Assembly: GCA_020444415.1 (NCBI GenBank)
Contig: JAHLLA010000001.1
Coordinates: 62,001 to 126,000 of the forward strand
Source of the DNA: Bacteroidota bacterium
Lineage (GTDB): Bacteria > Bacteroidota > Bacteroidia > Bacteroidales > F082
Reading direction: 5' to 3'
Length of the DNA: 64,000 bases
Shown in pieces: positions 25,496 to 49,700 of this stretch (the first letter of the stretch is position 1; each line of letters begins with the position of its first letter). The notes beneath the pieces are model-generated. The model was not told the DNA's origin. It saw only the letters and a list, made by a program, of their open reading frames with translations, and searched no databases. The position numbers and the translations under genes were made by a program.

Positions 25496-26725
25496 ATGAC
25501 AAAGGAATATCCATATATTTGGTTTGAGGAATTGAACATCTGTGTTATTATTCCTACATACAACAATCAGAAGTCCATAGGAGCTGTTATCTCCGGTGTG
25601 AAAAATTATACGAAACGGATCATTGTTGTAAATGATGGATCAACTGACGATACATCTCAAATCCTGGCCAAAATAGAGGGGATCGACATCATTCAGTATT
25701 TACCGAATAAGGGTAAAGGATATGCCATCAGGTCTGGTTTTAAGCGCGCCTTGGAACAGGGGTTTGACTATGCCATTACAATCGATGCTGACGGGCAGCA
25801 TTTTGCAGATGACCTGCCTTTGTTTATTGACAAATTAAGGAAAAATCCAGGCAGTCTGATTGTGGGTTCTCGCAATATTGAAGCCGAAGGGATGCCTGGA
25901 AAAAACACTTTTGCCAACCGCTTTTCAAATTTCTGGTTCCGGCTTGAAACTGGTATCCGTTTACCCGACACACAATCGGGTTACCGATTGTACCCATTAA
26001 GAGCCTTTGAAAAAAGCAACTTTATCACCAGGAAATATGAATTTGAGCTTGAAATTCTTGTCAGGTCGGCATGGCGCAATATTCCCATTATTCCCATATC
26101 CGTTAAGGTATATTATCCGCCGGAAGGAGAACGTGTTTCTCACTTCAGACCTTTGCGTGATTTTACAAGGATCAGCCTGCTGAATACAGTTCTTGTGCTC
26201 ATCACTTTGCTGGTGGTTTGGCCGGTTAAGTTATTTCGCTACCTCACAAAAAATAAATTTACAGATATTGTCAGGGAGCAGATCACCGTCCACAACGAAA
26301 ATCCGTTTAAAGTAGCTACAGCCATTGGTTTTGGCACTTTTATGGGCATCTCCCCCATCTGGGGATTTCAAATGTTGACCGCGGCTTTTCTGGCCCACCT
26401 GATGCGTTTAAATAAAGTACTGGTACTGCTGGCTTCTAATATTTCCATCCCTCCGCTTATTCCTTTTATCATTTATTTCAGCTATAAAACCGGTGGACTG
26501 GTGCTGGGTAATAAGAGCATTTTGACAAATGAAGCCCTCATGGATTTGAAAAACCAGTTGCTGAACGGACATTTTTATGATTCCTTAAGGGATTTTGGAT
26601 ACAACTTGTTTCAATACGTGCTCGGTAGCCTGGTTTTCGGGCTGGTGCTGGGTTTTGTAATGGCACTTTTCACTTATTTATTATTAATTTTATGGAAGAA
26701 TAAAGCTGTCAATTCGCAAACATGA
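25496..26725 (+). CDS. Glycosyltransferase family 2 protein with C-terminal DUF2062 domain
   Basis: A 409-residue protein. The N-terminal GT2 domain has 'CVIIPTYNNQKSIGAVI', 'IIVVNDGSTDDTSQIL' and 'YAITIDADGQHFADDL' (DxD region) and resembles dolichol-phosphate mannosyltransferase-like enzymes. The C-terminal part has about four transmembrane helices and the DUF2062 pattern 'FKVATAIGFGTFMGISPIWGFQM' and 'SNISIPPLIPFIIYFSYKTGG'. It is likely membrane-bound and faces the cytoplasm. It is the first gene of the pigment-like cluster and overlaps the MMPL fusion gene by four bases (ATGA). Aryl polyene clusters also carry glycosyl/acyltransferase genes. The sugar donor is unknown. Confidence 0.88.
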   Translation: MTKEYPYIWFEELNICVIIPTYNNQKSIGAVISGVKNYTKRIIVVNDGSTDDTSQILAKIEGIDIIQYLPNKGKGYAIRSGFKRALEQGFDYAITIDADGQHFADDLPLFIDKLRKNPGSLIVGSRNIEAEGMPGKNTFANRFSNFWFRLETGIRLPDTQSGYRLYPLRAFEKSNFITRKYEFELEILVRSAWRNIPIIPISVKVYYPPEGERVSHFRPLRDFTRISLLNTVLVLITLLVVWPVKLFRYLTKNKFTDIVREQITVHNENPFKVATAIGFGTFMGISPIWGFQMLTAAFLAHLMRLNKVLVLLASNISIPPLIPFIIYFSYKTGGLVLGNKSILTNEALMDLKNQLLNGHFYDSLRDFGYNLFQYVLGSLVFGLVLGFVMALFTYLLLILWKNKAVNSQT

Positions 26726-29700
26726 GCCTCGTTTTCAATTACATATACCAGCAAATCAATAAGCACAAACTATTTTCTATATTGGTGTTTACAGTTATCC
26801 TTACCGTGGCCGGATATTTTACTTCCAGGCTCACTTTTTCCGAAGATATTACGAAAGTATTACCTGAAAGCGATAAAATAAACCAGTTGAATTTCGTTTT
26901 GGATAATTCGGAATTTATGGAAAAGCTTGTATTCAATATAAGCTTAAGAGATACCGCCCATGCCGCCAAGCCGGAATTACTCACTTTATTTGCAGACCGT
27001 TTTTCTGACTCCATCGAAAAAAGGTATGTACCTGAAAGTATCCTCTCAATAGAAACAGCACCTGATGATGCCGAAATGTTGCAGATGTATGATTTCATTT
27101 ACAACAACCTCCCTGTTTTCCTTGACGAGACGGATTATATTGAAATTGAAAAAAGGATCAGCGATACTGGTATCAGGAATAACCTGCAAAACAACCTGAA
27201 AACCTTGATATCCCCAGCCGGATTTGGTGTGAAAAAGATGATCAGGAACGATCCTTTGCACTTAACAACGATCGCATTGGAAAAGTTCAGGTCATTCCGG
27301 ATAAGCGACAATTTTGAGTTGTATAGGGGCCATTTTTTAACCAAAGACAGGAAAAACCTGTTATTGATTGTTACACCGGTGTCAACCAATAATTCATCAG
27401 TTAATAAGGGCTTGTTTAGTGGAATTGATCAATTAATTGCTGATATAACTACAGATGAGTTTGGCGCCATCAATGTGCAATATTTTGGCAATGCCGCCGT
27501 GGCACTTGGCAATGCTGAACGCATTAAAAAGGATATTATCATTACAGTTTCTGTAGCCGCCATCCTGCTTGTTTTGCTCATTTCGGCATTTTTCAGAAAA
27601 AAAAGAACTTTTCTGGTTATTTTTCTACCGGTGGTGGCTGGTGCATTGGTTTCGCTTGCCCTCATTTATTTTTTCAGGTCCAACATTTCAGCCATTTCAC
27701 TTGGTATTGGTTCGGTGCTGGTAGGTATTTCCGTTGATTATGCCCTGCATATTTTTTCGCATTACCGCAAAAATCAGGACATCGAGCTACTTTATAAAGA
27801 TATCGCGACTCCTATTGTGATGAGCAGCATCACAACCGCTGCCGCTTTTTTATGTTTATTTTTTATCAATTCTAAAGCACTGAATGATTTAGGCTTGTTT
27901 GCTGCTTTGAGTATCTTAGGAGCAGCCTTGTTTTCCCTGATCATCTTGCCACATTTGATCAAATCAAAATCAGAGAAAACGCCAAAAGAAAACTGGCTCG
28001 ACAAACTGGCCAATGTTCAAACATCAAAAAAAACCTTCGTTTGGCTTGGCATTATTGCATTAACCATCTTTTTCTATTTCACATCAAAAAAAGTTGGGTT
28101 TGATGCTGATATGATGAAGAATAACTATATGAGCGAAGAACTCAGCAAAGCTGAAGAAGACTTAAACAGGGTAACAAACCTGTCAAAAAAAACCATCTAT
28201 CTCGTATCGCCTGGCACCACCATTGATGTAGCATTAACGAATAATGAAAAAGCACAATATCTTATCGATAGCCTTTCGCGATTGGGAACTATAAAAAGTT
28301 CCATGGTTTTAAATACGGTTTTCAAATCCAACGAAAGCCAGAAAAAGTCAATTGCTCAATGGAACTATTTCTGGGATAAAAACAGAGAAAATGTAAAAGA
28401 GAAATTGATTACAAACGGAGCTGAATTTGGTTTTAAAGAAACCGCCTTCACTCCATTCCTTCAAATGCTCGATAAAAATTACGAGCTTGTTCCCATCGGC
28501 CAGTCAGGCATTATGAAAACATATTTACTGGATAATTACATCATAGAAACCGATACAATGTCAGCCATCATTAATACTGTAAAAGTGGATAGTGAGAATG
28601 AAGCCATAGAGCAGGTTTATGAAGGTTTTAGTGATGAAGATGCTATTTGGGTGGTTGATAAAAGGATGGTTACGAGCGAACTAATCAAACTACTCAATCA
28701 CAACCTGAACCAACTGGTACTCATCTCCCTTCTTGTGGTTTTTGTAATTCTACTGATCGCTTACGGAAGAATTGAACTGACGGTTATTACCATGATTCCC
28801 ATTGTGATCAGTTGGATTTGGACTGTAGGTATCATGGGGCTTTTCGGCATTTCATTCAATATTTTTAATGTTATTATACTGACTTTTATTTTCGGACTGG
28901 GTATTGATTACAGCATTTTTGTGATGCGAGGATTGATTCAGGGATATAAATACGGTATGAAAGATTTATCTTCCTACAAAGTATCTGTTCTTTTATCAGT
29001 TTTAACAACCATTCTCGGGATCGGGGTATTGATATTCGCCAAACATCCTGCCTTGCGTTCCATTGCCACCATGTCGATCATTGGAATCGTCTCTGTGGTT
29101 TTTATCACCTTTACCCTATTACCAGGTATTTTTAATTGGTTGGTAACCTATAAAAAAGGATTACGTAACCGGCCTGTTACTTTTCTCGATTTTATTTTTT
29201 CCATTATTGCACTCCTTGTTTTTATTGGTGGTGCTTTATTGATGGGATTATTTGCGTTGATCCTCGAAATTATTCCTGCTGACAAATTAAAAAAGAAGTG
29301 GCTGTTTCATGTTATATTCAGCAAACTCACCTGGTTTCTGATCTATTTGAATTTTCTGAGCCCTAAGAAGATTGACAATCCAAACAAGGAAGATTTTAAA
29401 AATCCTGCCATTGTTATTGCCAATCACCAGTCGCACGTCGACCTGATGCTGATCATGTTATTAAATCCACGCATTCTCATCGTTACCAATGCACGTAATT
29501 ACTATCATCCGGTTCATGGAAAAGCCATCCGATATGCTGATTTCCTTCCGCACGATGCCGGTTATGAAAAATTGAAGGAGATGGCCGCAGAAAAAGTGAA
29601 AGAAGGTTATTCGATCATGATATTCCCGGAGGGTCACCGAAGCGATACGGGGGAAATCAGACGTTTCCATAAAGGTGCTTTTCAACTGGCAAGCGATCTA

Positions 29701-30570
29701 AAAATCGAGATACTTCCTATTATCATCCATGGTCAGAATCAATGCCTTAAAAAAAGTGAATTCTTCCTGAAAAGAGGAAGCGTTGTAACAACTATTCTGC
29801 CCAGGATTGATCTCACTAAAAATGAATTCGGAGAAACCATCAAAGAACAAACAAAGGGCATACAAGCCTATTTTAGAGATGAATATGCCAAGGTAAAGGC
29901 TCTTTTTGAAACAACTTCATATTTCAGCGACTTTATTAAAAAAAATTACCTGTATAAAGGACCGGTTTTGGAATGGTACACCAAAATTAAGATCAGGCTT
30001 GAAAATGACTATGCATTTGTTGAAAAAACGGTCCCTAAAAAAGCCCGGATTACAGACCTCGGATGTGGATACGGTTATTTGGATTATATGTTATCCCTTA
30101 CTTCCAATGAGCGACTGATAACAGGAATAGATTACGATAGCAATAAAATAAAAATAGCTCAAAACTGTGCTATTAAAAATGATCAAATTACATTTATAGC
30201 AGGTGATATAATTGATTTAGATTTTGAAGAATCAGATGTTTTTATCTTAAATGATGTGCTGCACTATATGCCTACTGACATGCAAATAAAAACCATCGAA
30301 AAGTGCATCGGAAATCTGACCGAAAAGGGAATGATCATTATCCGTGATGCCGATAAAAGTCTGAAAAAAAGACATATGGGAACCATTTTCACGGAATTTT
30401 TGTCGACCAATCTTGGTTTTAATAAAAAACAATTTAAACTTGAATTTGTTTCTCATGAGGTCATTCAGGATGTTGCCATATCAAACCACCTTGACCTGGA
30501 AATAATTGACCAAACCAAAAGAACTTCTAACCTTGTTTATATTCTGCGTAAAAGAGCATCTGCTATTTAA
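26722..30570 (+). CDS. MMPL/RND exporter - PlsC acyltransferase - SAM methyltransferase fusion
   Basis: A 1282-residue single open frame with three parts. Residues 1-860 form an RND/MMPL-type transporter: one helix at 18-35, a periplasmic loop, a bundle of six helices, a second periplasmic loop (about 450-660), and a second bundle ('LLIAYGRIELTVITMIPIVISW', 'FIFGLGIDYSIFVMRG'). Residues 880-1075 are a 1-acyl-glycerol-3-phosphate-type acyltransferase, with ANHQSHVD (HX4D) near 901 and FPEGHRSD near 968. Residues 1095-1282 are a class I methyltransferase with 'ITDLGCGYGYLDYML' near 1114 and 'VFILNDVLHYM'. Each of these activities exists in aryl polyene/flexirubin clusters as separate genes. A role in acylating, methylating and exporting the cluster product is inferred. 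There is no internal stop or frameshift. Confidence 0.9.
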   Translation: MSLVFNYIYQQINKHKLFSILVFTVILTVAGYFTSRLTFSEDITKVLPESDKINQLNFVLDNSEFMEKLVFNISLRDTAHAAKPELLTLFADRFSDSIEKRYVPESILSIETAPDDAEMLQMYDFIYNNLPVFLDETDYIEIEKRISDTGIRNNLQNNLKTLISPAGFGVKKMIRNDPLHLTTIALEKFRSFRISDNFELYRGHFLTKDRKNLLLIVTPVSTNNSSVNKGLFSGIDQLIADITTDEFGAINVQYFGNAAVALGNAERIKKDIIITVSVAAILLVLLISAFFRKKRTFLVIFLPVVAGALVSLALIYFFRSNISAISLGIGSVLVGISVDYALHIFSHYRKNQDIELLYKDIATPIVMSSITTAAAFLCLFFINSKALNDLGLFAALSILGAALFSLIILPHLIKSKSEKTPKENWLDKLANVQTSKKTFVWLGIIALTIFFYFTSKKVGFDADMMKNNYMSEELSKAEEDLNRVTNLSKKTIYLVSPGTTIDVALTNNEKAQYLIDSLSRLGTIKSSMVLNTVFKSNESQKKSIAQWNYFWDKNRENVKEKLITNGAEFGFKETAFTPFLQMLDKNYELVPIGQSGIMKTYLLDNYIIETDTMSAIINTVKVDSENEAIEQVYEGFSDEDAIWVVDKRMVTSELIKLLNHNLNQLVLISLLVVFVILLIAYGRIELTVITMIPIVISWIWTVGIMGLFGISFNIFNVIILTFIFGLGIDYSIFVMRGLIQGYKYGMKDLSSYKVSVLLSVLTTILGIGVLIFAKHPALRSIATMSIIGIVSVVFITFTLLPGIFNWLVTYKKGLRNRPVTFLDFIFSIIALLVFIGGALLMGLFALILEIIPADKLKKKWLFHVIFSKLTWFLIYLNFLSPKKIDNPNKEDFKNPAIVIANHQSHVDLMLIMLLNPRILIVTNARNYYHPVHGKAIRYADFLPHDAGYEKLKEMAAEKVKEGYSIMIFPEGHRSDTGEIRRFHKGAFQLASDLKIEILPIIIHGQNQCLKKSEFFLKRGSVVTTILPRIDLTKNEFGETIKEQTKGIQAYFRDEYAKVKALFETTSYFSDFIKKNYLYKGPVLEWYTKIKIRLENDYAFVEKTVPKKARITDLGCGYGYLDYMLSLTSNERLITGIDYDSNKIKIAQNCAIKNDQITFIAGDIIDLDFEESDVFILNDVLHYMPTDMQIKTIEKCIGNLTEKGMIIIRDADKSLKKRHMGTIFTEFLSTNLGFNKKQFKLEFVSHEVIQDVAISNHLDLEIIDQTKRTSNLVYILRKRASAI

Positions 30571-30606
30571 TCTTCTTGCTGATTCTGTGGCTTTTACAAT
30601 ATTAAA

Positions 30607-30638
30607 TTTGCTTTTTATTTTCTCATATTGTATCTTTG
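30607..30638 (+). promoter_or_regulatory. Putative promoter for the small lipoprotein gene
   Basis: TTTG (30607-30610), 20-base spacer, TATCTTTG (30631-30638): an excellent fit to TTTG-N19-21-TAnnTTTG. Confidence 0.6.
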
Positions 30639-30706
30639 ATCTTTCAGTTTACGTATACCTCTCCGGTTGGTAAACCTGAAAACGAAAAACAAACAAAGCA
30701 TAGATC

Positions 30707-31066
30707 ATGAAAACAAGATTACTCTTAGGATTATTGGGCCTGCTTTTTATTGCATCTTCATGCAATAAGGAAGAGTTTCCCGACAGGGAAACGCTGGTCG
30801 GAAAATGGGCGCTTAAAGATGGACCCAGCGATGCTTATATTGAGTTTGGCATGTGGCGCATGACCATTACCAATGGTAATACCCAGGAATACCACTATTC
30901 ACCATTAAACAGCACTATGTATTTGTACCCCAATAAATACGACGATCCTGATGATTTCAGCACGCATTCCATTTATTACAACAAGAAAAAGGACGAGCTC
31001 AGGATCTGGCATATTTTAAAAGAATATGGTGATAGCTCGGGTTATACAACTTTTAAAAAGCAATAA
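30707..31066 (+). CDS. Small lipoprotein of unknown function
   Basis: A 119-residue protein with a lipoprotein signal peptide (MKTRLLLGLLGLLFIASSC, lipobox ending at Cys19) and 'NKEEFPDRETLVGKWALKDG', where the 'LVGKWAL' pattern resembles lipocalin-like/META-type Bacteroidota lipoproteins. The remainder is short beta-rich sequence ('MRMTITNGNTQEYHY', 'YNKKKDELRIWHIL'). It is 136 bases after the fusion gene and has its own promoter. It probably sits on the periplasmic side of the inner or outer membrane. Function unknown. Confidence 0.8.
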   Translation: MKTRLLLGLLGLLFIASSCNKEEFPDRETLVGKWALKDGPSDAYIEFGMWRMTITNGNTQEYHYSPLNSTMYLYPNKYDDPDDFSTHSIYYNKKKDELRIWHILKEYGDSSGYTTFKKQ

Positions 31067-31155: not shown

Positions 31156-31207
31156 AATCCAACTGAAATTCATTCATTATTTACTTTTATTTTGAGTTGC
31201 TTTTTTG

Positions 31208-32704
31208 ATGGAAACCTTGTATGATGTTGTTATAATTGGAAGTGGGCTTGGCGGGCTTGAATGTGCTACAATCCTCAGTAAACATGGTTATCGTGTTTGT
31301 GTGCTGGAGAAAAACTCTAAACTGGGCGGAACACTCCATAGTTTCAAACGCTTTGGTTGTGAATATGGAACCGGTATGCATTATATAGGCAGCCTGGACG
31401 AAGGACAGGTAACTCATCAGCTTTTTAAATACCTGGGCATTCTGGATAAGATCAACATAAAAAGAATGGATACAACGGGTTTCGATCAATTCAGTATCGG
31501 GGGAAAAGAATATAAATATTCCATGGGCAAACAGGCATTCGTTGAACGACTTACCTCCTATTTCCCAAATGAGAAAGCTGATATTGCGAATTACTTTGAA
31601 GAAATTGAGAAAGCAACAAACGAAGTGGATGTGTACAACCTGAAACCGCTGAAAAATTTCGACATAAGGACAAATTACGCTCTAAATACCGGGGCTTTCA
31701 ATAAAATAAAATCCCTTACCGCTAATCCGGACCTGCAAAATGTGCTGGGCGCTTTGAACTTTGTACACGCCGGAGAAAAAGACAAAACCCCTTTCTATAC
31801 TCATGCGCTCATTAACAAATACTATATTGACAGTGCTTATAAACTAGTGGATGGCAGTTACCAGATAGCCACTTCCCTGGTTGAGAATATAAAAGATGCA
31901 GGAGGAGATGTTTTTAACCGTGAAAAGGTTTGTGAAATGATTTCTAAAGACGGAAAGATTATTGCCGTAAAAACCGAACAAGGAAAAACAGTTTATGGGA
32001 AACAGTTTATTTCCAATATTCATCCTTCGCTTACAATCCGTATGCTGGACGATTCATTGCTCAGAAAAGCATACAAACTGCGGATCACAGAACTTGACAA
32101 CACCATATCTGCTTTTACCCTTCACCTAAAATTAAAGGAAAACTCTTTTCCCTATCTGAACTATAACTACCATTACTATAAAAGAAACGATGTATGGTAT
32201 CCGTCGTACTATTCAGAAAAAAACTGGCCTGAATTTTACTATTTGTTTGTACCTGCTAAATCCGGTTCAGGTACATTTGCAAATTGTATCAGCATTCATA
32301 CCTATATGAAATTTGCAGAAGTTGAAAAATGGAAAGACTTGCCCATACGGCAAAGAGGCGATGAATATGAAGATTGGAAAGCATCGAAAGCAGAAAAATT
32401 GATCCAAATGGTGTCGGAAAAATTTCCTGAAATAAAAGGAAACATTGAAGCCTATAATGTCAGCACACCTTTATCTTTGCGTGATTATATAGGAACACCC
32501 GATGGCGGCATGTACGGAATTTCAATGGATTATAAAAACCCCATGACAACCTACGTAGCACCAAGAACTAAGATACCCAACCTGTTTTTTACAGGCCAGA
32601 ATGTTAGTCTGCATGGTATGCTGGGTGTGAGTATAAGCAGCCTGATCACTAGTGGCGAATTATTGGGATTGAACAAATTAATAAATGAAATCAATGAAGT
32701 GTAA
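31208..32704 (+). CDS. FAD-dependent oxidoreductase, phytoene desaturase/retinol saturase-like
   Basis: A 498-residue flavoprotein of the CrtI/RetSat type. The FAD-binding GxGxxG motif is in 'DVVIIGSGLGGLECATILSKHG' at the N-terminus, followed by 'VLEKNSKLGGTLHSFKR' and the C-terminal FAD motif 'NLFFTGQNVSLHGMLGVSISS'. Such enzymes desaturate, saturate or isomerise polyenes, and flexirubin-type clusters carry comparable genes. It is the first of two in the cluster; the second is at 34396. Its 3' end overlaps the start of the C45 gene by 20 bases. The upstream in-frame TTG (31205) is not needed, since an ATG follows directly. Confidence 0.88.
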   Translation: METLYDVVIIGSGLGGLECATILSKHGYRVCVLEKNSKLGGTLHSFKRFGCEYGTGMHYIGSLDEGQVTHQLFKYLGILDKINIKRMDTTGFDQFSIGGKEYKYSMGKQAFVERLTSYFPNEKADIANYFEEIEKATNEVDVYNLKPLKNFDIRTNYALNTGAFNKIKSLTANPDLQNVLGALNFVHAGEKDKTPFYTHALINKYYIDSAYKLVDGSYQIATSLVENIKDAGGDVFNREKVCEMISKDGKIIAVKTEQGKTVYGKQFISNIHPSLTIRMLDDSLLRKAYKLRITELDNTISAFTLHLKLKENSFPYLNYNYHYYKRNDVWYPSYYSEKNWPEFYYLFVPAKSGSGTFANCISIHTYMKFAEVEKWKDLPIRQRGDEYEDWKASKAEKLIQMVSEKFPEIKGNIEAYNVSTPLSLRDYIGTPDGGMYGISMDYKNPMTTYVAPRTKIPNLFFTGQNVSLHGMLGVSISSLITSGELLGLNKLINEINEV

Positions 32705-34382
32705 ACCTAAAAACAAATTCCTGCGATTTCTATTGTTTCTGTTGTTAACAATCGTGTTGGTAATTCTTATCTTCATTATATGGTATCATTTAGATACACA
32801 ACTATCAAAACCGTCTGTTGACAAATCCATCGTTAATAAACTACATAGGGAAACCGCGGGAACTGATCAGTACCAAATTGGAAACAACTGGTTGAAAAAA
32901 AACACATACGGGCTTTGGGAAATGTACCTTGAAGGCCCGGCATTTGAGCGAGGTGTAGTTAGCGGAAAACTAACCAGGGAATTGATCTACAAACAGGAAA
33001 AATCATTTGTTGACCAGATCAGGGAAATGATCCCATCTGAATCCTACCTGAATTTTCTGAAATATTTTATCCGGTTTTTCAATCGTGATATTGATGAATA
33101 TATTCTACCTGAATACCAGGAGGAAATATACGGCATATCGTTTTCAGCTTCTGATGATTTTGATTTTATCGGCACCAAATATGAACGCATGCTCAATTAC
33201 CATGCAGCACATGATGTAGGCCATGCCTTGCAGGACCTCATGCTGGTGGGCTGTACTTCTTTTGCTGCCAATATGGGATTTGCTGACAGTAGTATGATCA
33301 TAGGCCGTAATTTTGATTTTTACATTAATGATGCCTTTGCTGAAGACAAAATCATCTGCTTCGTAAGACCTGATGAGGGCCACGAATTCGCTTATATCAC
33401 CTGGGCGAGTATGATAGGTGTAGTTTCCGGCATGAACAATAAAGGATTGACCGTTACCATCAATGCCGGAAAATCGGATGTACCATTCAGAGCAGCTACG
33501 CCCATTTCTTTGCTGGCCAGGGAGATTTTACAATACGCTGCAAACATTGAAGAGGCCATTGAGATTTCGAAGAAAAGAAAAACTTTCGTGTCCGAATCCC
33601 TGTTGATTGGATCAGCCAGTGATAACCAGGCAGTCATTATCGAAAAATCACCATCTAAATTTGGCGTTTACAGCGCTGACAATGAATTTTTGGTTTGTTC
33701 CAATCATTTTCAAAGCGAAACTTTTGCAGGTGACGAAAACAACAACGATCAAATCTCAACATCGGCATCATTATACAGGCAAAACCGAACTATTGAAATG
33801 CTCAACAAGGAAGATACAATAAGCTACCTGGAAGCAGCTGACATATTGAGAAATCGCTGGGGTTTAAATGAACAGCCCATTGGTATCGGCAATGAAAAAG
33901 CCATGGCGCAGATGATCTCGCATCATAGTGTCATTTTTCAGCCCCTAAAAAGAAATATCTGGATTTCAACAGCGCCTTACCAGTTGGGAGAATTTTTGAA
34001 CTATAACCTGTCTGATTTTTTTTCAGTTAATTACCCGAATCCATCTGCTACAATGTTTGATACTGCTTATACGATTCCTGATGATCCTTTCCAGTATTCA
34101 GTAGAGTTCAAAAATTATCTGCAGTATAAATCGGAGCGGCTTAAACTTAAAGAAGCCACACAAAACAAAATACTACTGGAAGATGATTATATAGATTATT
34201 TTATTGCCCTCAATCCCGGGTATTTTGAAAGTTACGTGCTTGCAGCAGATTATTACTTTGCCACAGGCAACTCCGAAAAAGCTTTACAACTCTACACGAA
34301 ATCTCGAAGCAAAGAATTTGAAAAAACATCGCAACGGATGGAAGTAGAAGAAAAAATCCAGGAGATCGAAAACAGACCATAA
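32685..34382 (+). CDS. C45-family autoproteolytic acyltransferase/hydrolase with membrane anchor
   Basis: A 565-residue protein with one N-terminal transmembrane helix (about residues 12-34). The core is of the peptidase C45/acyl-CoA:6-aminopenicillanate acyltransferase (Ntn hydrolase) type. 'LVGCTSFAANMGFADSSMIIGRNFDFY' has Cys190 as the likely nucleophile freed by self-cleavage at Gly189-Cys190, and 'GVVSGMNNKGLTVTINAG' follows the family. The C-terminal 100 residues look like TPR-type helices ('YVLAADYYFATGNSEKALQLYTKS'). In this cluster it could join an acyl chain to an acceptor outside the cytoplasm, but acceptor and donor are unknown. Another in-frame ATG lies at 32694. Confidence 0.85.
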   Translation: MKSMKCKPKNKFLRFLLFLLLTIVLVILIFIIWYHLDTQLSKPSVDKSIVNKLHRETAGTDQYQIGNNWLKKNTYGLWEMYLEGPAFERGVVSGKLTRELIYKQEKSFVDQIREMIPSESYLNFLKYFIRFFNRDIDEYILPEYQEEIYGISFSASDDFDFIGTKYERMLNYHAAHDVGHALQDLMLVGCTSFAANMGFADSSMIIGRNFDFYINDAFAEDKIICFVRPDEGHEFAYITWASMIGVVSGMNNKGLTVTINAGKSDVPFRAATPISLLAREILQYAANIEEAIEISKKRKTFVSESLLIGSASDNQAVIIEKSPSKFGVYSADNEFLVCSNHFQSETFAGDENNNDQISTSASLYRQNRTIEMLNKEDTISYLEAADILRNRWGLNEQPIGIGNEKAMAQMISHHSVIFQPLKRNIWISTAPYQLGEFLNYNLSDFFSVNYPNPSATMFDTAYTIPDDPFQYSVEFKNYLQYKSERLKLKEATQNKILLEDDYIDYFIALNPGYFESYVLAADYYFATGNSEKALQLYTKSRSKEFEKTSQRMEVEEKIQEIENRP

Positions 34383-35913: not shown

Positions 35914-35929
35914 TAAGCGCAAGTATACC

Positions 35930-39309: not shown

Positions 39310-39324
39310 AAATTGAAGGTTAGA

Positions 39325-40506: not shown

Positions 40507-40537
40507 ACGGCAGTTTCAATCCGGATACCAATTGATC

Positions 40538-40965: not shown

Positions 40966-41376
40966 ATGAAAAAGAAAGAAGTACCTCAGGACGACGCGAA
41001 TATGATGCAGGGGAAATTCAGGGAACCTGTTTATTCATTGGATGAGACTGGTAACTATACCACAGTTAAAAGTGTTGGATGGGATCCGAAGAATGCTGTT
41101 ATGCAACAAGCCTGGGATCATATCAATGAAAAAGTGGAAGAAACGAGGCTAAAAGTAATCAACGGACAATTAAGCCCGATTGCTTACTATATGGAGAAAA
41201 ACATCATGGATGTTGGTCTTTTATCAAAATATATGGGTTTATGGAAGTGGACCGTTAAAAAACATTTAAAACCAAAATACTTTAACAAACTGTCAGAAGA
41301 ACGGCTTGCACAATACGCCGATATTTTTGATATTACACCCGGGCAACTAAAGGATATAAATCAACTGAAGAAATGA
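40966..41376 (+). CDS. Small HTH-like protein of unknown function in the pigment-like cluster
   Basis: A 136-residue soluble protein. The N-terminal 60 residues are polar ('REPVYSLDETGNYTTVKSVGWDPKN'). The C-terminal part 'LLSKYMGLWKWTVKKHLKPKYFNKLSEERLAQYADIFDITPGQLKDI' has the helix spacing of an Xre-like helix-turn-helix with a following helix pair. It may be a regulator or a structural partner. The start codon of the next gene overlaps its stop (ATGA). I cannot name a family. Confidence 0.75.
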   Translation: MKKKEVPQDDANMMQGKFREPVYSLDETGNYTTVKSVGWDPKNAVMQQAWDHINEKVEETRLKVINGQLSPIAYYMEKNIMDVGLLSKYMGLWKWTVKKHLKPKYFNKLSEERLAQYADIFDITPGQLKDINQLKK

Positions 41377-42401: not shown

Positions 42402-43156
42402 TGGAAAAAGCGAGCATCATCGATATTAAACATCTGACCAAGTGCTATAAAAACGCCGATGAAGCTGCTGTTAAAGATTTAACCCTGTCTGTTAACAAAG
42501 GTGATATTTTCGGGCTGTTAGGGCCCAATGGTGCAGGTAAAACAACAACGATTTCCATACTTTGCAACCAGATATCTGCTGATGAAGGTGAGGTTATGAT
42601 AGAAGGTCACGACCTGAATTCAGAAAGCGATCTCATTAAAAAAATCATAGGTGTCGTACCCCAGGATATTGCATTATATCCGAAACTAACTGCCTATGAA
42701 AATCTGAAATTTTTCGGAAATATGTATGGTTTAAGAGGCAAAGTGCTTAAAGAAAGGATCACCAGTTCCGTAAGCGATTTTGGCCTAGAAAAAAAGCTTC
42801 ACTCAAAAGTCGGAACGTTTTCAGGCGGCATGAAACGCCGGATCAACCTGATTGCTGGCATCTTGCACAAACCCAACATATTGTTTCTTGATGAACCTAC
42901 GGTGGGCATCGATGTCCAATCGAAAAATGTGATCATTGAACACTTACAACAATTGAATGCCAGCGAAGGCACTACCATAGTTTATACCTCGCACCTGATG
43001 GAAGAAGCCGAAAGATTTTGCACGCATATCGCAATTATTGATATGGGTAAAGTGGTCACGGTTGGTGAACCTTCAGCACTGATAAAAGCATATCCGGGCT
43101 GCAGCAATTTAGAGGATATTTTTCTATTGTTAACCGGCAGAAGTCTAAGAGATTAA
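42401..43156 (+). CDS. ABC transporter ATP-binding protein
   Basis: A 251-residue ATPase of the ABC-2 export type. Walker A GPNGAGKTTT at about residues 39-48, signature 'FSGGMKRRINL', Walker B 'ILFLDEPTVGID' and H-loop 'TIVYTSHLMEE' are all present. The translational overlap with the BtrH-like gene and the permease gene four bases downstream show a dedicated exporter for this cluster. Confidence 0.95.
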   Translation: MEKASIIDIKHLTKCYKNADEAAVKDLTLSVNKGDIFGLLGPNGAGKTTTISILCNQISADEGEVMIEGHDLNSESDLIKKIIGVVPQDIALYPKLTAYENLKFFGNMYGLRGKVLKERITSSVSDFGLEKKLHSKVGTFSGGMKRRINLIAGILHKPNILFLDEPTVGIDVQSKNVIIEHLQQLNASEGTTIVYTSHLMEEAERFCTHIAIIDMGKVVTVGEPSALIKAYPGCSNLEDIFLLLTGRSLRD

Positions 43157-43160
43157 TCAT

Positions 43161-44453
43161 ATGTGGCTCAAATTTAAAGCATCTACAATTAAGGAATTAC
43201 TCCTGCTCATGCGCGACAGGGCGGGACTTGCCATGCTTTTTCTTATGCCAATGTTACTGATTTTCATCATGTCGCTGCTCCAGGAGTCTACTTTAAAAAA
43301 GCTGGAAGAAAGACACACCCCCGTGCTTATCGTCAATTTTGATAACGATTCATTGGGTATAAATATAGTAAACGGCTTAAGAAGTGCCGGTTTTTTTGAA
43401 ATTCATGAACTTATTGATGGTAAGCAACCCAGTTTGGAAGAATTAAAAAAACTTGTAAACTACGGTAAGTATAGGGTAGGTATTATCGTTAAAGAAGGTG
43501 CTTCCGAGGCATTACGAAACCAGATCAGGTGCGAGATACAGCAAATGTTTCCGGCCGAAGAAGGTGATTTGTTTTCACCCCCACCAGACCCTGACAAACC
43601 ATATCCGGAAATTGACATCTATTTTGACCCCATTACGCAACCTACTTTCAAGCACGCTGTTAGCAGTGCACTGAATGAATTTACATACGCAGTCGAGGCA
43701 AAAATGATCATGGGCATTTATGCCCAAATGCTGAATGATATTGTGGGCATTGAGATAAACCGGTCGGGTAATTTCAAAAACATGATCAATTTGAACGAGC
43801 AATATGCCGGTAACCGTAAAAAAATTATTGTCCCGAATGCGGTGCAGCATAATGTACCTGCCTGGACCATATTTGCTATGTTTTTCATCGTGATACCGCT
43901 GGCAGGAAATATCATCAAAGAAAGGGAAAGCGGCATGTCACTCAGGTTGCGTACCATGCCTGGCTCCAACCTGGCCGTTATTTTCGGAAAAGCGAATGTC
44001 TATTTTATGGTTGGTATATTGCAGGCAGTTTTCATGCTGCTGATCGGTGTATTCGTCCTGCCCATGGTGGGCATGCCTGCCCTTGAACTGGGTTCAAGCA
44101 TATTAGCCCTTTTGTTGGTAACCATTTCCATTTCCCTTGCAGCTTCCGGCTATGGCATCTTAATCGGGACCATTTCCACATCCCAGGAACAATCATCCAT
44201 TTTTGGCTCTATTTCCGTAGTCATACTGGCAGCAATTGGCGGCATCTGGATACCCACATTCATGATGTCGGAAAAAATGAATATTGTTAGTAAACTATCA
44301 CCGCTCAATTGGGGACTGGATGCCTATTATGATATTTTTCTGAGAAATGCGGACGTATCAGATATCCTGATCTACATATTGCCACTTTTCTTATTTGCCT
44401 TAAGTTGCATCTTAGCTTCATGGCTTTATAACCGCTATAAAACCTCAAATTAA
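43161..44453 (+). CDS. ABC-2 type transporter permease
   Basis: A 430-residue membrane permease: one N-terminal helix (about 22-42), a large extracytoplasmic loop (about 45-215, with 'FSPPPDPDKPYPEIDIYFDP'), then five or six helices from about 235 to the C-terminus, ending 'IYILPLFLFALSCILASWLYNRY'. 'IPLAGNIIKERESGMSLRLRTMPGS' is the typical ABC-2 coupling segment. Paired with the ATPase gene just upstream. Confidence 0.93.
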   Translation: MWLKFKASTIKELLLLMRDRAGLAMLFLMPMLLIFIMSLLQESTLKKLEERHTPVLIVNFDNDSLGINIVNGLRSAGFFEIHELIDGKQPSLEELKKLVNYGKYRVGIIVKEGASEALRNQIRCEIQQMFPAEEGDLFSPPPDPDKPYPEIDIYFDPITQPTFKHAVSSALNEFTYAVEAKMIMGIYAQMLNDIVGIEINRSGNFKNMINLNEQYAGNRKKIIVPNAVQHNVPAWTIFAMFFIVIPLAGNIIKERESGMSLRLRTMPGSNLAVIFGKANVYFMVGILQAVFMLLIGVFVLPMVGMPALELGSSILALLLVTISISLAASGYGILIGTISTSQEQSSIFGSISVVILAAIGGIWIPTFMMSEKMNIVSKLSPLNWGLDAYYDIFLRNADVSDILIYILPLFLFALSCILASWLYNRYKTSN

Positions 44454-44536
44454 AAATTGTAAAGATTTTATAAGATTTCATGAACACTTTATAGCACTTT
44501 GTTGTTATTAGTTCTTACGATTGCCCGCTAAATAAT

Positions 44537-44544: not shown

Positions 44545-44569
44545 CACCCTTAAACTGAAGCAACCCAGC

Positions 44570-44995
44570 ATGAGTAAGCAATTAAAAGACAGAACCGAAG
44601 TTAAAGTCCGTTTTGGAGAAGTGGATTCGATGGGGATTGTCTGGCATGGCAACTACGTAAAATATATTGAAGAAGGCCGTGAGTCATTTGGTAAAAGGTA
44701 TGGCATATCCTATCTTGACATCTATGCTAATAAAGTGATGGCACCTGTGGTCAACATGAATATTGATTTTAAAAAACAGGTTCAATACGGTGATATTCTC
44801 ATCGTGGAAACAGAATTTATTAACAACCCGGCGGCAAAGATCATATTTCGATTTAAAATCTTCCGAAAATCAGATAATGAATTGGTAGCAACAGCCGAAA
44901 GCACACAGGTATTTATTGATTTGAAGCGCGAAATGTTATTATACCCACCTGCATTTGTACTCGATTGGAAAAAGAAAGTGGGATTAACCGGATAA
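44570..44995 (+). CDS. 4-hydroxybenzoyl-CoA thioesterase family (hotdog) protein
   Basis: A 141-residue hotdog thioesterase. The signature 'VRFGEVDSMGIVWHGNYVKYIEEGRESF' contains the conserved Asp in VDSMGIV and HGNY/EEGRE. Members hydrolyse acyl-CoA or acyl-ACP. Aryl polyene clusters contain such a thioesterase, thought to release or proofread chains. The ketosynthase gene starts four bases later. Confidence 0.92.
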   Translation: MSKQLKDRTEVKVRFGEVDSMGIVWHGNYVKYIEEGRESFGKRYGISYLDIYANKVMAPVVNMNIDFKKQVQYGDILIVETEFINNPAAKIIFRFKIFRKSDNELVATAESTQVFIDLKREMLLYPPAFVLDWKKKVGLTG

Positions 44996-44998
44996 GTG

Positions 44999-46144
44999 AT
45001 GCATATGGCATTTTTCGTAGCTGATAATATTATTTCTCCACTGGGTTTTACAACCGCTGATAATTTTTTTGCATTAGCAAAAGGCCTAACAGGAATTGAT
45101 ATTATAAACGACACCAAAATCTATCCTGAAACTTTTCCAGCAGCTATGATACAGCCGAGATCACTAAACAATGCATTTGAAAATATTCCAACAACTACCA
45201 CGTTCACACACCTCGAGAAAATGCTGCTATTATCCGTTTCTGATGCTATAAACAAAACAACCATTGATATAAAATCACCAAAAACGGGCATCATACTTTC
45301 CACCACTAAAGGAAATATCGACCTTTTAGCGCCTGATCAGCAAAACAAATTTGAAAAAGAAAGGGTACAATTATGGCGACTCGCTCAGGTTATAGCAGGG
45401 TATTTTGGCAATCCAAATCAACCTATCGTAATTTCCAATGCATGTATTTCAGGTGTATTGGCGATAAATGTGGCGGCCATGCTCATCCATGAAGGAAAAT
45501 TTGATCATATAATTGTAATCGGGGGTGATATCGTTTCACGATTTGTTGTCAGTGGTTTTATGTCGTTTATGTCGCTAAGCCCAAAAGCTTGTAAACCCTT
45601 CGACAAAGAACGTGACGGCTTATCACTCGGTGAAGCAGCCAGCACGATTATTTTAAGTAAAGACAAGACCGGAAAAAACAATATTAGATATTTAGGAGGT
45701 GCTTCTGCCAACGACGCCAACCATATTTCAGGACCTTCAAGAACGGGGGAAGGCTCTTTTATTGCCATAAAAAAGGCAATGGAAGAAGCGAATGTAACAC
45801 CCCATCAAATAGATCACATTTCGGCACACGGAACAGCCACTCCCTACAACGATGAGATGGAAAGTATTGCCATCGACAGGCACCAATTGAACAAGGCACC
45901 TGTAAATAGTTTGAAAGGCAGTTTTGGACATACCCTTGGGGCAGCCGGGCTTGTTGAAACGGCTATTTTGCTTGAAGAAATGCGTAACAACATGTTGCTA
46001 AAAACAGTTGGTTTTTCAGAATTGGGGGTGTCAAGAAAAATTAATGTGGTGAATCAAACAACAAACCATGAACTAAAAACCTGTTTAAAAATGGCATCAG
46101 GTTTCGGGGGTAGCAATGCGGCCATGGTCATTCAGAAAGCATAA
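44999..46144 (+). CDS. Beta-ketoacyl-ACP synthase (FabF-like), first ketosynthase
   Basis: A 381-residue KAS I/II-fold ketosynthase. The triad is complete: Cys149 in 'VISNACISGVLAIN', His in 'HISAHGTATPYNDEMES', His in 'SLKGSFGHTLGAAGLVETA', with the GFGGSN C-terminal motif. A GTG two codons... one codon upstream in frame could also serve as start, but the ATG at 44999 is preferred. It would elongate the chain on the ACP at 46782. The stop overlaps the start of the next gene (TAATG). Confidence 0.92.
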   Translation: MHMAFFVADNIISPLGFTTADNFFALAKGLTGIDIINDTKIYPETFPAAMIQPRSLNNAFENIPTTTTFTHLEKMLLLSVSDAINKTTIDIKSPKTGIILSTTKGNIDLLAPDQQNKFEKERVQLWRLAQVIAGYFGNPNQPIVISNACISGVLAINVAAMLIHEGKFDHIIVIGGDIVSRFVVSGFMSFMSLSPKACKPFDKERDGLSLGEAASTIILSKDKTGKNNIRYLGGASANDANHISGPSRTGEGSFIAIKKAMEEANVTPHQIDHISAHGTATPYNDEMESIAIDRHQLNKAPVNSLKGSFGHTLGAAGLVETAILLEEMRNNMLLKTVGFSELGVSRKINVVNQTTNHELKTCLKMASGFGGSNAAMVIQKA

Positions 46145-46779
46145 TGGAACAGTTGATAATAAAGACATATTGCCATATTAAAAACAACCATGTTTACATC
46201 AACGGCCAACCTGCTTTTGATTACCCGGAAGCTAACAGTATGCATGATTTTCTTAAAAAAGCATTCAAACATTTTAAACCCGGTTATGCTAAGTTTTATA
46301 AAATGGACGACATCAGTAAACTAGGGTTTTTGGCCTCAGAAGTTATTTTGAAAGATAAGCCTAATCAGAATTGTGCACCGGAGGACGTTGGCATCGTAAT
46401 AAGTAATTCGCAATCTACGCTGGTAACAGATACAGAATTCCAGGCTTCGATTGAAGACGACGACCATTTTTTTCCCAGCCCGTCCGTATTTGTATATACC
46501 CTTCCCAACATTATGATGGGTGAAATTTCCATAAGGCATGGATTTAGAGGTGAAAATGCTTTTTATATCTTTGAAAACTTTAATGCAAATTTTGTGGCTG
46601 ATTACATCAATCAGTTATTTTTGTCGCAGAAATTAAAAGCCTGCATCGGGGGTTGGGTGGATCAATCTTCTGAAAGTTATGAAGCCTTTATATACTGGGC
46701 AGATGATCAGAAAGACGGAATACCGGCCATAGAACATTCAGGCAATGAAATTGAACGCTTATATAATTTAATAAGATAA
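46144..46779 (+). CDS. Truncated ketosynthase-like protein without active-site Cys
   Basis: A 211-residue protein with weak similarity to the first half of ketosynthases: 'VGIVISNSQSTLVTDTEF', 'FPSPSVFVYTLPNIMMGEISIRHGFRGENAFYIFENFNANFVADYINQLFLSQKLKACIGGWVDQSS'. The region where a KS has its catalytic Cys (ACSSS) reads 'ENAFYIFENF', and the C-terminal half with both catalytic His is missing. Similar short proteins are found beside KS genes in flexirubin-type clusters. It probably plays a structural or scaffold role and is not an enzyme in its own right. It lies between an intact KS and the ACP. Confidence 0.75.
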   Translation: MEQLIIKTYCHIKNNHVYINGQPAFDYPEANSMHDFLKKAFKHFKPGYAKFYKMDDISKLGFLASEVILKDKPNQNCAPEDVGIVISNSQSTLVTDTEFQASIEDDDHFFPSPSVFVYTLPNIMMGEISIRHGFRGENAFYIFENFNANFVADYINQLFLSQKLKACIGGWVDQSSESYEAFIYWADDQKDGIPAIEHSGNEIERLYNLIR

Positions 46780-46781
46780 TA

Positions 46782-47036
46782 ATGGAAGAATTGATACAAA
46801 AGTTGAAGGTACAGATCATCGAGCAATTAAATCTTGAGGATATGGAACCGGACGATATTGACGAAACTGATCCTTTATTTGGAAATGGATTGGGTTTGGA
46901 TTCAATAGACGCGTTGGAACTCATCGTTTTGCTGGAAAAGGAGTATGGTATAAAAATTGAAAACCCGAAAGACGGTCAAAAGATATTCTACTCCATTAAA
47001 AGTATGGCCGAATTCATCGAAAGTCATCAAAAATAA
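46782..47036 (+). CDS. Acyl carrier protein
   Basis: An 84-residue acidic four-helix ACP. The phosphopantetheine attachment site is Ser41 in 'GNGLGLDSIDALELIVLLE'. The chain elongates while tethered here through the KS, CLF-like and dehydratase proteins encoded around it. It begins three bases after the preceding stop. Confidence 0.95.
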   Translation: MEELIQKLKVQIIEQLNLEDMEPDDIDETDPLFGNGLGLDSIDALELIVLLEKEYGIKIENPKDGQKIFYSIKSMAEFIESHQK

Positions 47037-47045
47037 TTCTTCCCT

Positions 47046-48257
47046 ATGTCATCTCCCATTGTTGTTACCGGCATCGGAATTATATCCTCCATTGGTAATA
47101 ATTTAAAGGAGACAACCCATGCTTTGCTGCACATGCAAAGCGGGATCAAGCCTGTTTCCATACTCAACACGCGCCATGCGGCCGATTTTGTATTGGGAGA
47201 AGTAAAAAAAACACAGGAAGAATTAAACCAGTTAGCAAATGCTGATCAAACCAAACCCTGGACCCGCACAGCCTTACTGGGGTTGATCGCTGCCAGGGAA
47301 GCCATTCAGGATGCCCGCTTAGATCATTCAGGCGCATTCAAAACAGGGATTGTTTCTGCCTCTACAGTAGGTGGAATGGACCGCAGCGAATTGTATTATA
47401 AAGATTTTATAGGCGAGGCCCGGCACAAAGAATTCATCGACACCCACCATGCCGGTGACCATACTGAAAAAATTGCTGAAACTTTGGACATAAAAGATTA
47501 CCTGACCACCATCAGTACGGCTTGTTCTTCTTCACTCAACAGCATCATGTTCGGCACCCGGCTGATTAAAAACGGCATACTTGACCGCGTTTTGGTAGGT
47601 GGCTCTGATGCTTTGTCGAAATTTACACTCAATGGATTCAATACCTTAATGATCCTCGACAAGGAGCATTGCCGGCCATTTGACGAAAGCCGCGCCGGAC
47701 TGAACCTGGGCGAAGGTGCCGCATACCTCGTCCTGGAAAAAGAAGAAGCAGCCCTTAAGCAGGGAAAAAAGATTTATGCCTATATTTCGGGCTATGCAAA
47801 TGCCAACGATGCCCACCATCAGACAGCTTCGTCAGAAGAAGGAAATGGCCCTTTCCTGGCCATGCAACATGCCATCACAAAAGCAGGATTAATACCAGAT
47901 GATATCGATTATATCAATGTACATGGCACCGGCACTGAAAACAATGACCTCACGGAAGGCATGGCCATGAAGCGTCTTTTTGGAACGCGAATACCCCCTT
48001 TCAGTTCAACCAAAGCTTTTACGGGGCATACACTGGGTGCCGCCGGAGTGATTGAATCCGTTTTTTCGATCATTGCCCTGCAGGAACAGAAACTGTTACC
48101 CAATATCAATTTTAAAACTGCCATCCCGGAAATCAATCTTATCCCTGTAACCGAAGTTAAAAATGCCAAATTAGGGCATGTCCTTACCAATTCTTTTGGC
48201 TTTGGCGGCAACGATTCCACAGTTGTTTTTTCATCGAATAAAACACGGGTATCATGA
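47046..48257 (+). CDS. Beta-ketoacyl-ACP synthase (FabF-like), second ketosynthase
   Basis: A 403-residue ketosynthase with a complete triad: Cys160 in 'TTISTACSSSLNSIMFG', His in 'INVHGTGTENNDLTE', His in 'TKAFTGHTLGAAGVIES', and the 'NSFGFGGND' C-terminal motif. Its stop overlaps the start of the following KS-like gene by four bases (ATGA), the arrangement of a KS-alpha/KS-beta pair. It is likely the main chain-extending enzyme in the second block. Confidence 0.93.
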   Translation: MSSPIVVTGIGIISSIGNNLKETTHALLHMQSGIKPVSILNTRHAADFVLGEVKKTQEELNQLANADQTKPWTRTALLGLIAAREAIQDARLDHSGAFKTGIVSASTVGGMDRSELYYKDFIGEARHKEFIDTHHAGDHTEKIAETLDIKDYLTTISTACSSSLNSIMFGTRLIKNGILDRVLVGGSDALSKFTLNGFNTLMILDKEHCRPFDESRAGLNLGEGAAYLVLEKEEAALKQGKKIYAYISGYANANDAHHQTASSEEGNGPFLAMQHAITKAGLIPDDIDYINVHGTGTENNDLTEGMAMKRLFGTRIPPFSSTKAFTGHTLGAAGVIESVFSIIALQEQKLLPNINFKTAIPEINLIPVTEVKNAKLGHVLTNSFGFGGNDSTVVFSSNKTRVS

Positions 48258-49318
48258 AAGCATATATCAATGGTATAGGTGCGGTGAGTCCGCAAAATAC
48301 ATTAAGCCAGGAGCACTTTCTGGACGATGTGGTAGCTGTAGAAGAACGCTTTCTTCAGGTACTTAAACCGGATTACAAATCTTTTATCGATCCTAAAGTG
48401 CTGCGCCGGATGAGCAAGATCGTCCGTATGTCGATCGTAGCTGCAAAAACTGCTTTGGATGAAGCGGGCATTGCAAAACCTGACGCCATTCTTACTGGCA
48501 CGGGAATGGGATGCCAGGCGGATACGGAAAAGTTTTTGAATGCCGTTCTCGATAACAACGAAACTTTATTGAACCCAACTGCCTTTATCCAATCGACCCA
48601 CAATACAATGGGTGCACAAATAGCCTTGATGCAAAACAATCACAATTACAATCTCACTTATGTAAATCGCGGTTTTTCATTTGAAAGCGCCTTACTAGAT
48701 GGTCTCATGCTGATTAAAGAGGGAGAAGTAAAAAACCTGTTGTTGGGAGGTATTGATGAAATAACGGATGAAAGCTGGCTGATTTCCACCAAAAATGACA
48801 TGTATAAAACTGAACCTCTCAATAATCTGCAATTACTGAATGACACACAAACGGGAGGGCTATCTGGTGAAGGTGCTAACTTTTTTGTACTTGCCGGTCA
48901 GAAAACCTCAAACTCATACGCGTGTATCTCGGGTTTAGACACGTTTTATAAACCTGCAAACGAACAGGTTGTTCTGGAAAAAATCCTTGATTTTTTAAAG
49001 AAACAAGAACTCGAATTGAAAGATATCGACCTTGTAATACTGGGTTACAATGGAAATCCAATATCAGATAATATTTATATGCATCTTGAAAATGAACTGT
49101 TTGCCGAAAATGCAACAGCATATTTCAAGCATCTGAGTGGCGAATATGATACAGCCGTTTCATTTGCCACCTGGCTGGCTGCCAAAATAATCAAAAACGG
49201 AGTTGTACCATCCAACGTGCAAAAACGGAAATATACAGGCACAGCTCCCAAAAAGGTTCTCATATACAACCACCTGAGAAATTTGTACCACAGCCCCATT
49301 TTATTAGAACAGGTTTAA
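48254..49318 (+). CDS. Ketosynthase-like protein, chain-length-factor candidate (KS-beta)
   Basis: A 354-residue KS-fold protein without the active site. The segment aligning with the catalytic Cys loop reads 'YVNRGFSFESALLDG', with no Cys. The first His motif is replaced by 'LVILGYNGNPISDN', and the GHTLGAAG motif by 'KHLSGEYDTAVSFATW'. The N-terminal 'GTGMGCQADTEKFLNAV' and 'PTAFIQSTHNTMGAQIALM' show it is KS-related. Loss of all three residues and the translational coupling to an active KS fit a KS-alpha/chain-length-factor heterodimer, as in type II polyketide and aryl polyene systems. Confidence 0.84.
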   Translation: MKAYINGIGAVSPQNTLSQEHFLDDVVAVEERFLQVLKPDYKSFIDPKVLRRMSKIVRMSIVAAKTALDEAGIAKPDAILTGTGMGCQADTEKFLNAVLDNNETLLNPTAFIQSTHNTMGAQIALMQNNHNYNLTYVNRGFSFESALLDGLMLIKEGEVKNLLLGGIDEITDESWLISTKNDMYKTEPLNNLQLLNDTQTGGLSGEGANFFVLAGQKTSNSYACISGLDTFYKPANEQVVLEKILDFLKKQELELKDIDLVILGYNGNPISDNIYMHLENELFAENATAYFKHLSGEYDTAVSFATWLAAKIIKNGVVPSNVQKRKYTGTAPKKVLIYNHLRNLYHSPILLEQV

Positions 49319-49319
49319 A

Positions 49320-49700
49320 ATGCTGGTCGAAGATTTTTATCATATCACAGAATTAATAAAACATGAGGATGCTCTTGATGCTGAAATTAAGTTGAATGCT
49401 GACCATGAGGTGTATAAAGGGCATTTTCCAGAACGGCCTGTTGTTCCTGGTGTAATTCAATTGCAGGTCATCAAAGAAGTATTGGAAAATGTTCTGGGCA
49501 TCGATTTAATGATCAGAGAAATAGTGGTGGCCAAATACCTTAGGCCGGTTACACCCGGTGAAAATCTATTTTTGCAAATTCGTATCGATTACAAGCAGGG
49601 CGAAACCGGTGAATACCTGATAAACGCGCGGGTAACAAAGAATGATACGACCTTTACAAAACTGAAAGCAACACTTTCTAAATCAACAATCAGGAGATAA
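49320..49700 (+). CDS. FabZ/ApeI-like hotdog protein
   Basis: A 126-residue hotdog protein. 'YKGHFPERPVVPGVIQLQVIKEVLE' contains His35 and the HFPxxPVVPGV pattern of FabZ/FabA/ApeI dehydratases. The acidic residue expected 14 positions after the His is Gln49 here ('IQLQV'). Either the dehydratase uses another residue or the protein has lost activity. It starts one base after the KS-beta gene stops and is the last gene of the cluster. Confidence 0.86.
   Translation: MLVEDFYHITELIKHEDALDAEIKLNADHEVYKGHFPERPVVPGVIQLQVIKEVLENVLGIDLMIREIVVAKYLRPVTPGENLFLQIRIDYKQGETGEYLINARVTKNDTTFTKLKATLSKSTIRR

Follow-up and report, generated by a model that had tools for sequence, protein, structure and literature searches.

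Does a long pigment gene run on a Bacteroidales contig encode a new kind of aryl polyene-resorcinol pathway, or one part of a known pathway? The question arises from a window of 64,000 nucleotides, the whole stretch of DNA analysed here, in a genome of the F082 lineage (GenBank assembly GCA_020444415.1, contig JAHLLA010000001.1, hereafter C5; the window starts at C5:62001). An earlier note described in it a co-directional run of 23 genes of flexirubin/dialkylresorcinol type. It regarded the enzyme set as unusual, seeing no ammonia lyase, ketoreductase or LolA-like carrier, and proposed that these were encoded elsewhere or that the starter was not derived from tyrosine and the product was a new variant. 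Our analysis confirms the run, which starts at C5:87421, and indicates that it very probably makes up the larger half of a full flexirubin pathway whose genes fall into two groups on the same contig.

The flxA group upstream of the window

Profile searches of the contigs of this genome (96.2% complete) returned three matches to the aromatic lyase family PF00221, all outside the window. Whole-genome searches for histidine or tyrosine ammonia-lyase (HAL/TAL), FabG and LolA homologues, as the earlier note had advised, recovered FlxA, FlxB and LolA2 on the same contig as the run:

C5:48152-49729, plus strand: FlxA, predicted tyrosine ammonia-lyase (NF053541, 860.2 bits; cut-off 700)
C5:49732-50460, plus strand: FlxB ketoreductase (NF053542, 382.8 bits; cut-off 340)
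C5:54766-56129, plus strand: carriers LolA2_flexi (NF053544, 199.1 bits; cut-off 125) and LolB2_flexi (NF053540, 85.9 bits; cut-off 60)

These genes belong to a plus-strand group ordered FlxA, FlxB, ketosynthase (KS), acyl carrier protein (ACP), LpxL-like acyltransferase, FlxJ-like methyltransferase, polysaccharide deacetylase, LolA2 and LolB2, in which the methyltransferase matches the FlxJ model over its full length (510.1 bits, below the cut-off of 560). The group spans C5:48152-56129 and shares contig and strand with the run, from which it is separated by 31.3 kb (about 38 kb for FlxA itself). The genes absent from the run are thus encoded elsewhere, in one group. A lyase and a ketoreductase adjacent in another part of the genome, with conserved operon links, had been named beforehand as what would make the cluster ordinary, and the flxA group has this arrangement. 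Because FlxA, FlxB, LolA2 and LolB2 lie together upstream with operon links that relatives keep, we regard the cluster as ordinary and the idea of an unusual enzyme set as not supported. A candidate new pigment class is removed, and the case illustrates that a fixed reading window can create false novelty: the missing enzymes lie only 6 to 14 kb past the window edge.

The reported absences hold for the run. Across the whole window, the PF00221 search of the genome found no ammonia lyase, and LolA was not found among the 46 window proteins scanned with Pfam, a subset of the window's open reading frames (ORFs). The window does contain one short-chain dehydrogenase/reductase (about 10483-11241), located 14 kb ahead of the run; it scores 132.9 bits against the FabG model, below the cut-off of 297.75.

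All three PF00221 proteins contain the ASG triad of the 4-methylideneimidazole-5-one (MIO) cofactor. FlxA carries Gln at a position where the other two, located together on contig C10, have Glu. We take this position to be the HAL/TAL motif described in PMC3992019, in which the residue is Gln in TAL and phenylalanine ammonia-lyase and Glu in HAL.

The 20 proteins scanned between the flxA group and the run include NAD synthase, a ParA-like protein, a cytidylyltransferase, GH3, LpxB, SurE and Maf, together with UbiA, UbiE, two UPF0004/radical SAM proteins and others. A recent insertion splitting the cluster was rejected, since no mobile-element family occurs among these 20 proteins, a subset of those encoded on either side of about C5:58.9-62 kb. 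Pathway decay was likewise rejected: the genes read are open, and motifs are intact where checked.

The gene run in the window

In the ORF list, the run comprises 23 plus-strand genes at 25421-49700 of the window, with short overlaps at most; smaller nested and antisense ORFs are excluded from the count. The start formerly given, 25496, corresponds to an internal in-frame methionine (Met 26) of the first ORF, which opens at 25421. Families were assigned by scanning window proteins against Pfam and curated flexirubin and NCBI models (NF and TIGR identifiers), each with its own cut-off; the assignments below come from these scans, supplemented by motif scans for the KS proteins.

25421..26725, plus strand: GT2 glycosyltransferase fused to DUF2062
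26722..30570, plus strand: MMPL exporter, lysophospholipid acyltransferase and methyltransferase fusion (1282 amino acids)
30707..31066, plus strand: putative lipoprotein of 119 amino acids, without family (ORF and family scans)
31205..32704, plus strand: CrtI-like oxidoreductase 1 (CrtI1)
32685..34382, plus strand: C45 autoproteolytic acyltransferase, proenzyme (NF040521, 225 bits; cut-off 85)
34396..35913, plus strand: CrtI-like oxidoreductase 2 (CrtI2), accessory
35873..37225, plus strand: FlxY, predicted 4-coumarate-CoA ligase (NF053551, 709.6 bits; cut-off 520)
37237..37836, plus strand: protein of 199 amino acids, signal-like N terminus, without family
37846..38274, plus strand: DUF2141 protein
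38389..39309, plus strand: DarA, flavodoxin-like, putative dialkylresorcinol aromatase/condensing enzyme (Flavodoxin_4, 23.4 bits, below cut-off 24)
39313..40461, plus strand: DarB ketosynthase, predicted dialkylresorcinol cyclase (NF053539, 566 bits; cut-off 550)
40532..40960, plus strand: FabZ-like hotdog, putative dehydratase 1 (FabZ, 31.6 bits, below cut-off 113; no Pfam match)
40966..41376, plus strand: DarG (NF053545, 179.3 bits; cut-off 170)
41373..42401, plus strand: DarH, BtrH-related acyltransferase (NF053550, 450.1 bits; cut-off 300)
42401..43156, plus strand: ABC transporter ATPase
43161..44453, plus strand: ABC-2 type permease
44570..44995, plus strand: YbgC/FadM-family (4HBT) thioesterase (TIGR00051, 78.9 bits; cut-off 68.7)
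44996..46144, plus strand: KS, Cys-His-His motifs intact
46144..46779, plus strand: KS-like protein of 211 amino acids without the motifs (fabF, 16.2 bits)
46782..47036, plus strand: ACP (LDSID motif)
47046..48257, plus strand: KS, Cys-His-His motifs intact
48254..49318, plus strand: KS-beta/chain-length-factor-like protein, KS motifs absent
49320..49700, plus strand: FabA-like hotdog, putative dehydratase 2 (FabA, 36.3 bits, cut-off 23; ApeI, 27.1 bits, below cut-off 28.5)

FlxY, DarB, DarG, DarH and C45 exceed their curated cut-offs, most other run proteins match the expected broad families, and for the proteins of 119, 199 and 211 amino acids the family scans gave no family above cut-off. 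The previously listed ACP, thioesterase, ABC pair, MMPL fusion, two CrtI-like proteins, BtrH-like protein and C45 protein are borne out by the scans, and the PaaK-like ligase corresponds to FlxY. The two KSs proposed to be active, at 44996 and 47046, keep the Cys, HGT and GHT motifs. The KS-beta candidate at 48254 also stands, and a second motif-less KS-like protein, at 46144, is additional to those listed before; in both, the motif scan did not find HGT/GHT, and the Cys is absent from its usual place by reading. For the two dehydratase-like hotdogs, the assignment holds at 49320, which exceeds the FabA cut-off, whereas the FabZ match at 40532 falls short. Similarly, DarB is upheld, its GTCN cysteine being invariant in 11 aligned sequences, whereas DarA passes no family cut-off and takes its name from its position before DarB.

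Together, the two gene groups would support the following route. FlxA, outside the window, would deaminate tyrosine to 4-coumarate, which FlxY, in the window, would convert to the CoA thioester. The ketosynthases with the KS-beta partner would extend the chain to an ACP-bound aryl polyene, together with the ACPs, FlxB from outside the window and the hotdog dehydratases within it. The ring would be methylated by the FlxJ-like methyltransferase (outside) and perhaps also by the MMPL-fused one. DarB and DarA would condense two fatty-acid-derived chains into a dialkylresorcinol, the halves would be joined as an ester by an acyltransferase, most plausibly DarH, and the MMPL, ABC, LolA2 and LolB2 proteins would deliver the pigment to the outer membrane. 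The FlxA, FlxY and DarAB steps have been shown elsewhere: TAL activity of FlxA and 4-coumarate ligase activity of FlxY for Chitinophaga pinensis (PMC3992019), and dialkylresorcinol formation by DarAB in earlier work cited in that source. All other steps we infer.

Co-occurrence and gene order in relatives

Co-occurrence was surveyed in 80 genomes, this one included; several are fragmented, and because the flexirubin genomes are related and the counts ignore phylogeny, the Fisher test values exaggerate independence. FlxA is present in 31 of the 80 (29 over the cut-off plus two truncated where their contigs stop, in G003 and G037), and FlxY is over its cut-off in 31, with G038, whose FlxY is in two pieces below the cut-off, counted as absent. 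Thirty genomes have both genes, leaving one unshared on each side. DarB occurs in 21 genomes, 19 of them at ≥500 bits (10 over the cut-off and 9 of near full length) and two as contig-end fragments (G001, G002), and FlxA accompanies it in all 21.

Within each group, gene order is largely conserved among relatives. They keep the order FlxA-FlxB-KS-ACP-LpxL-FlxJ, which in G012 continues with deacetylase-LolA2-LolB2, as well as the order DarA-DarB-hotdog-DarG-DarH-ABC-ABC, in some cases with gaps. After the dar block, thioesterase-KS-KS-like-ACP-KS-KS-beta follows in G009, G012 and G030, again with some gaps. In G012, GT2-DUF2062 and MMPL genes come after LolB2 in the flxA group, which ties the head of the window run to that group; the MMPL fusion aligns over 1191-1278 of its 1282 residues in G009, G012 and G016. 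CrtI1 adjoins C45 in G009, G012, G017 and G030, both genes recur close to FlxY in relatives, and a homologue of the 199-residue protein follows FlxY in G012, G019 and G039. The flxA and dar groups lie on separate contigs of 86-211 kb in G012, G017 and G030, and G009 has FlxA, DarB and FlxY on three contigs; the split is therefore common in this family.

Among the confirmed DarB loci, at least 542 in number, we tallied neighbouring genes in 80, within at most 10 kb on each side, a span in which absences mean little. A DarA homologue was present in 66/80 and FlxA in 11/80. One-contig arrangements of FlxA, DarB and FlxY were found in an uncultured Maribacter (30.9 kb; L195), Sphingobacterium lumbrici (25.7 kb; L196) and Paenimyroides baculatum (30.3 kb; L200). 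In Chitinophaga filiformis (L170) and C. pinensis YS-16 (L174), FlxA and FlxY lie within about 25.6 kb on a single contig; neither gene is present in the DarB locus of 21 kb.

These distributions bear on two alternatives. A starter from a source other than tyrosine, with a new aryl polyene-resorcinol variant as the product, was one of the two options in the earlier note and is highly improbable. In vitro, C. pinensis FlxY does accept certain other arylacrylic and arylpropionic acids (PMC3992019), and in our genome the extra CrtI2 gene precedes FlxY; against this stand a flexirubin-type FlxA above its curated cut-off on the same contig and the 30 of 31 genomes in which FlxA accompanies FlxY. 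We regard as extremely improbable a pair of independent pathways, in which the flxA group would yield a free aryl polyene and the genes of the window run, FlxY and the dar genes among them, would make some other product. Ten of the 31 FlxA genomes, some of them fragmented assemblies, show no DarB, so that this order probably includes aryl polyenes that lack resorcinol. Yet every DarB genome has FlxA, several genomes hold FlxA, DarB and FlxY in one block, genes switch sides between the groups, and in this genome one group is without a ligase and the other without a lyase and ketoreductase.

Several points weigh against a single, split flexirubin pathway. What is shown here is which genes are present, where they lie and with what they co-occur; the product and pigment are predicted. 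According to PMC3992019, sequence by itself does not allow the specificity of a lyase to be predicted. DarA, the FlxJ-like methyltransferase and hotdog 1 fall below every flexirubin-specific cut-off. Gene order varies: G039 has ACP-LpxL-FlxJ ahead of DarA-DarB, with FlxA on a different contig. CrtI2 has a narrow distribution, its close relatives (77-94% identity) being limited to 4 of the 79 other genomes (G002, G019, G037 and G043, all with FlxY), and a tailored derivative is possible. Finally, the genome is probably from an uncultured organism, since the nearest DarB loci among the matches listed belong to metagenome-assembled genomes.

C45 was rejected as an unusual feature: it occurs in 30/80 genomes (one, G037, by a fragment), 27 of the 31 FlxY genomes and all 21 DarB genomes, with one stop in the match in G002, G003, G019 and G068. 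DarH at ≥400 bits is found in 21 genomes, 19 of which have DarB (19/21 DarB genomes). Nine C45 genomes are without DarB, seven of them with FlxY. Because strong DarH goes with DarB, while C45 is also present in those seven, DarH is the more likely of the two to join the resorcinol to the polyene; this is a lead, weakened by the presence of C45 in every DarB genome.

Two further observations concern relatives. FlxA and FlxY occur without a true DarB match in G008, G016 (L118, L119), G031, G037, G041, G048, G050, G067, G068 and G074; in G016, FlxA to FlxY form a single block of 23 kb, which suggests an aryl polyene with a different resorcinol partner or none. On contig C40 of G004 (L215, L216), ACP, LpxL, FlxJ-like, LolA2, LolB2, CrtI1 and C45 genes are kept, FlxY is reduced to a 43-residue match, and the profile search found no FlxA over the cut-off; this locus is apparently decaying.

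A second dar-like locus and comparison with published systems

Genes resembling DarB, DarG and DarH are also found in a second locus of this genome, at C17:29011-50075 (L211, L212), which first appeared as weak DarB and DarH relatives in genome-wide profile searches. Its DarB-like ketosynthase III scores 110 bits against the StlD/DarB model (cut-off 450), its DarG-like protein 68 bits (below the cut-off of 170) and its DarH-like protein 322 bits (cut-off 300); its KS/KS-beta pair shares 50% and 42% identity with that of the window. The locus further encodes a FabD-like acyltransferase, a thioesterase, two crotonases, a hydroxyacyl dehydrogenase, a KS, a methyltransferase, an ACP, a sulfotransferase, an outer-membrane barrel-like protein (by reading) and, within it, a Fic gene. 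Three radical SAM proteins are also present, all over the cut-off for the radical SAM domain, with the B12-binding domain over its cut-off in one and just under in two.

Nearly the entire set recurs on one contig of G019, 3.5 kb from CrtI1-C45-CrtI2-FlxY. G001 and G003 have the part from the dehydrogenase onward, where their contigs start, and G004, G018 and G025 have pieces, adjoining flexirubin genes in G004 and G018. A 67% radical SAM homologue lies in the polyene cluster of G016, which is without DarB, where CrtI and FlxY flank it; such a homologue is also beside FlxY in G041. It is unlikely, though conceivable, that the C17 locus supplies the aryl polyene with a different partner, methylated and sulfated, beside or replacing the dialkylresorcinol; it may instead make a separate product. 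Of the 10/80 genomes with rSAM421, a radical SAM gene of the locus, nine have FlxA; against a pathway shared with flexirubin, rSAM421 is missing from 22 of the 31 FlxA genomes and is not clearly linked to DarB presence or absence (5/10). Our literature search, by title, found no description of this gene combination. The one real oddity is this C17 locus, linked to flexirubin genes in some relatives; the flexirubin pathway itself is ordinary.

The seemingly unusual items are matched in print or by curated flexirubin models, the exceptions being C45, the CrtI-like genes and the exact position of the break, which found no printed match in the literature compared. That literature also includes a flexirubin cluster in Galbibacter (PMC11237725) and PMC9606717. 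No published role for C45 in a flexirubin gene cluster was found in literature judged by titles and the beginnings of abstracts. Against the main text of PMC3992019, as distinct from its gene tables, C45 and the second CrtI-like gene are additional in our genome.

Azoarcus sp. BH72 offers a partial parallel. Its dar cluster, darA-darK, includes a BtrH-like protein, an ABC pair, an ACP and a KS (Table 1, PMC3949708), so that DarA, DarB, BtrH-like, ABC ATPase and permease, ACP and KS stand together as in the window, and its arcuflavin polyene genes occupy two physically unlinked loci. Azoarcus differs in using a XanB2-type chorismate-utilizing enzyme giving hydroxybenzoic acids, whereas our genome has the FlxA lyase. 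The one-block clusters of Maribacter, S. lumbrici and P. baculatum share the core genes and largely the internal order of the dar block; they differ in keeping FlxA, DarB and FlxY together, and P. baculatum has a second DarA-DarB pair.

A further close likeness is to C. pinensis and Flavobacterium johnsoniae UW101 (PMC3992019), with which the genome shares the TAL FlxA, a reductase, FlxY, several KSs, dehydratases, thioesterases, a deacetylase, an acyltransferase, LolA, a glycosyltransferase, an exporter, darB and, here putative, darA. F. johnsoniae has a single 37 kb cluster, whereas C. pinensis has separate flx and dar clusters, a two-locus layout like that found here. The break point differs: in our genome the dar genes have FlxY, the exporter and several KSs beside them, and the second group, 31 kb away, holds FlxA, FlxB, one KS, one ACP, the FlxJ-like methyltransferase, LolA2 and LolB2. 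The pathway is new only as a further member of a known family of systems with another break point.

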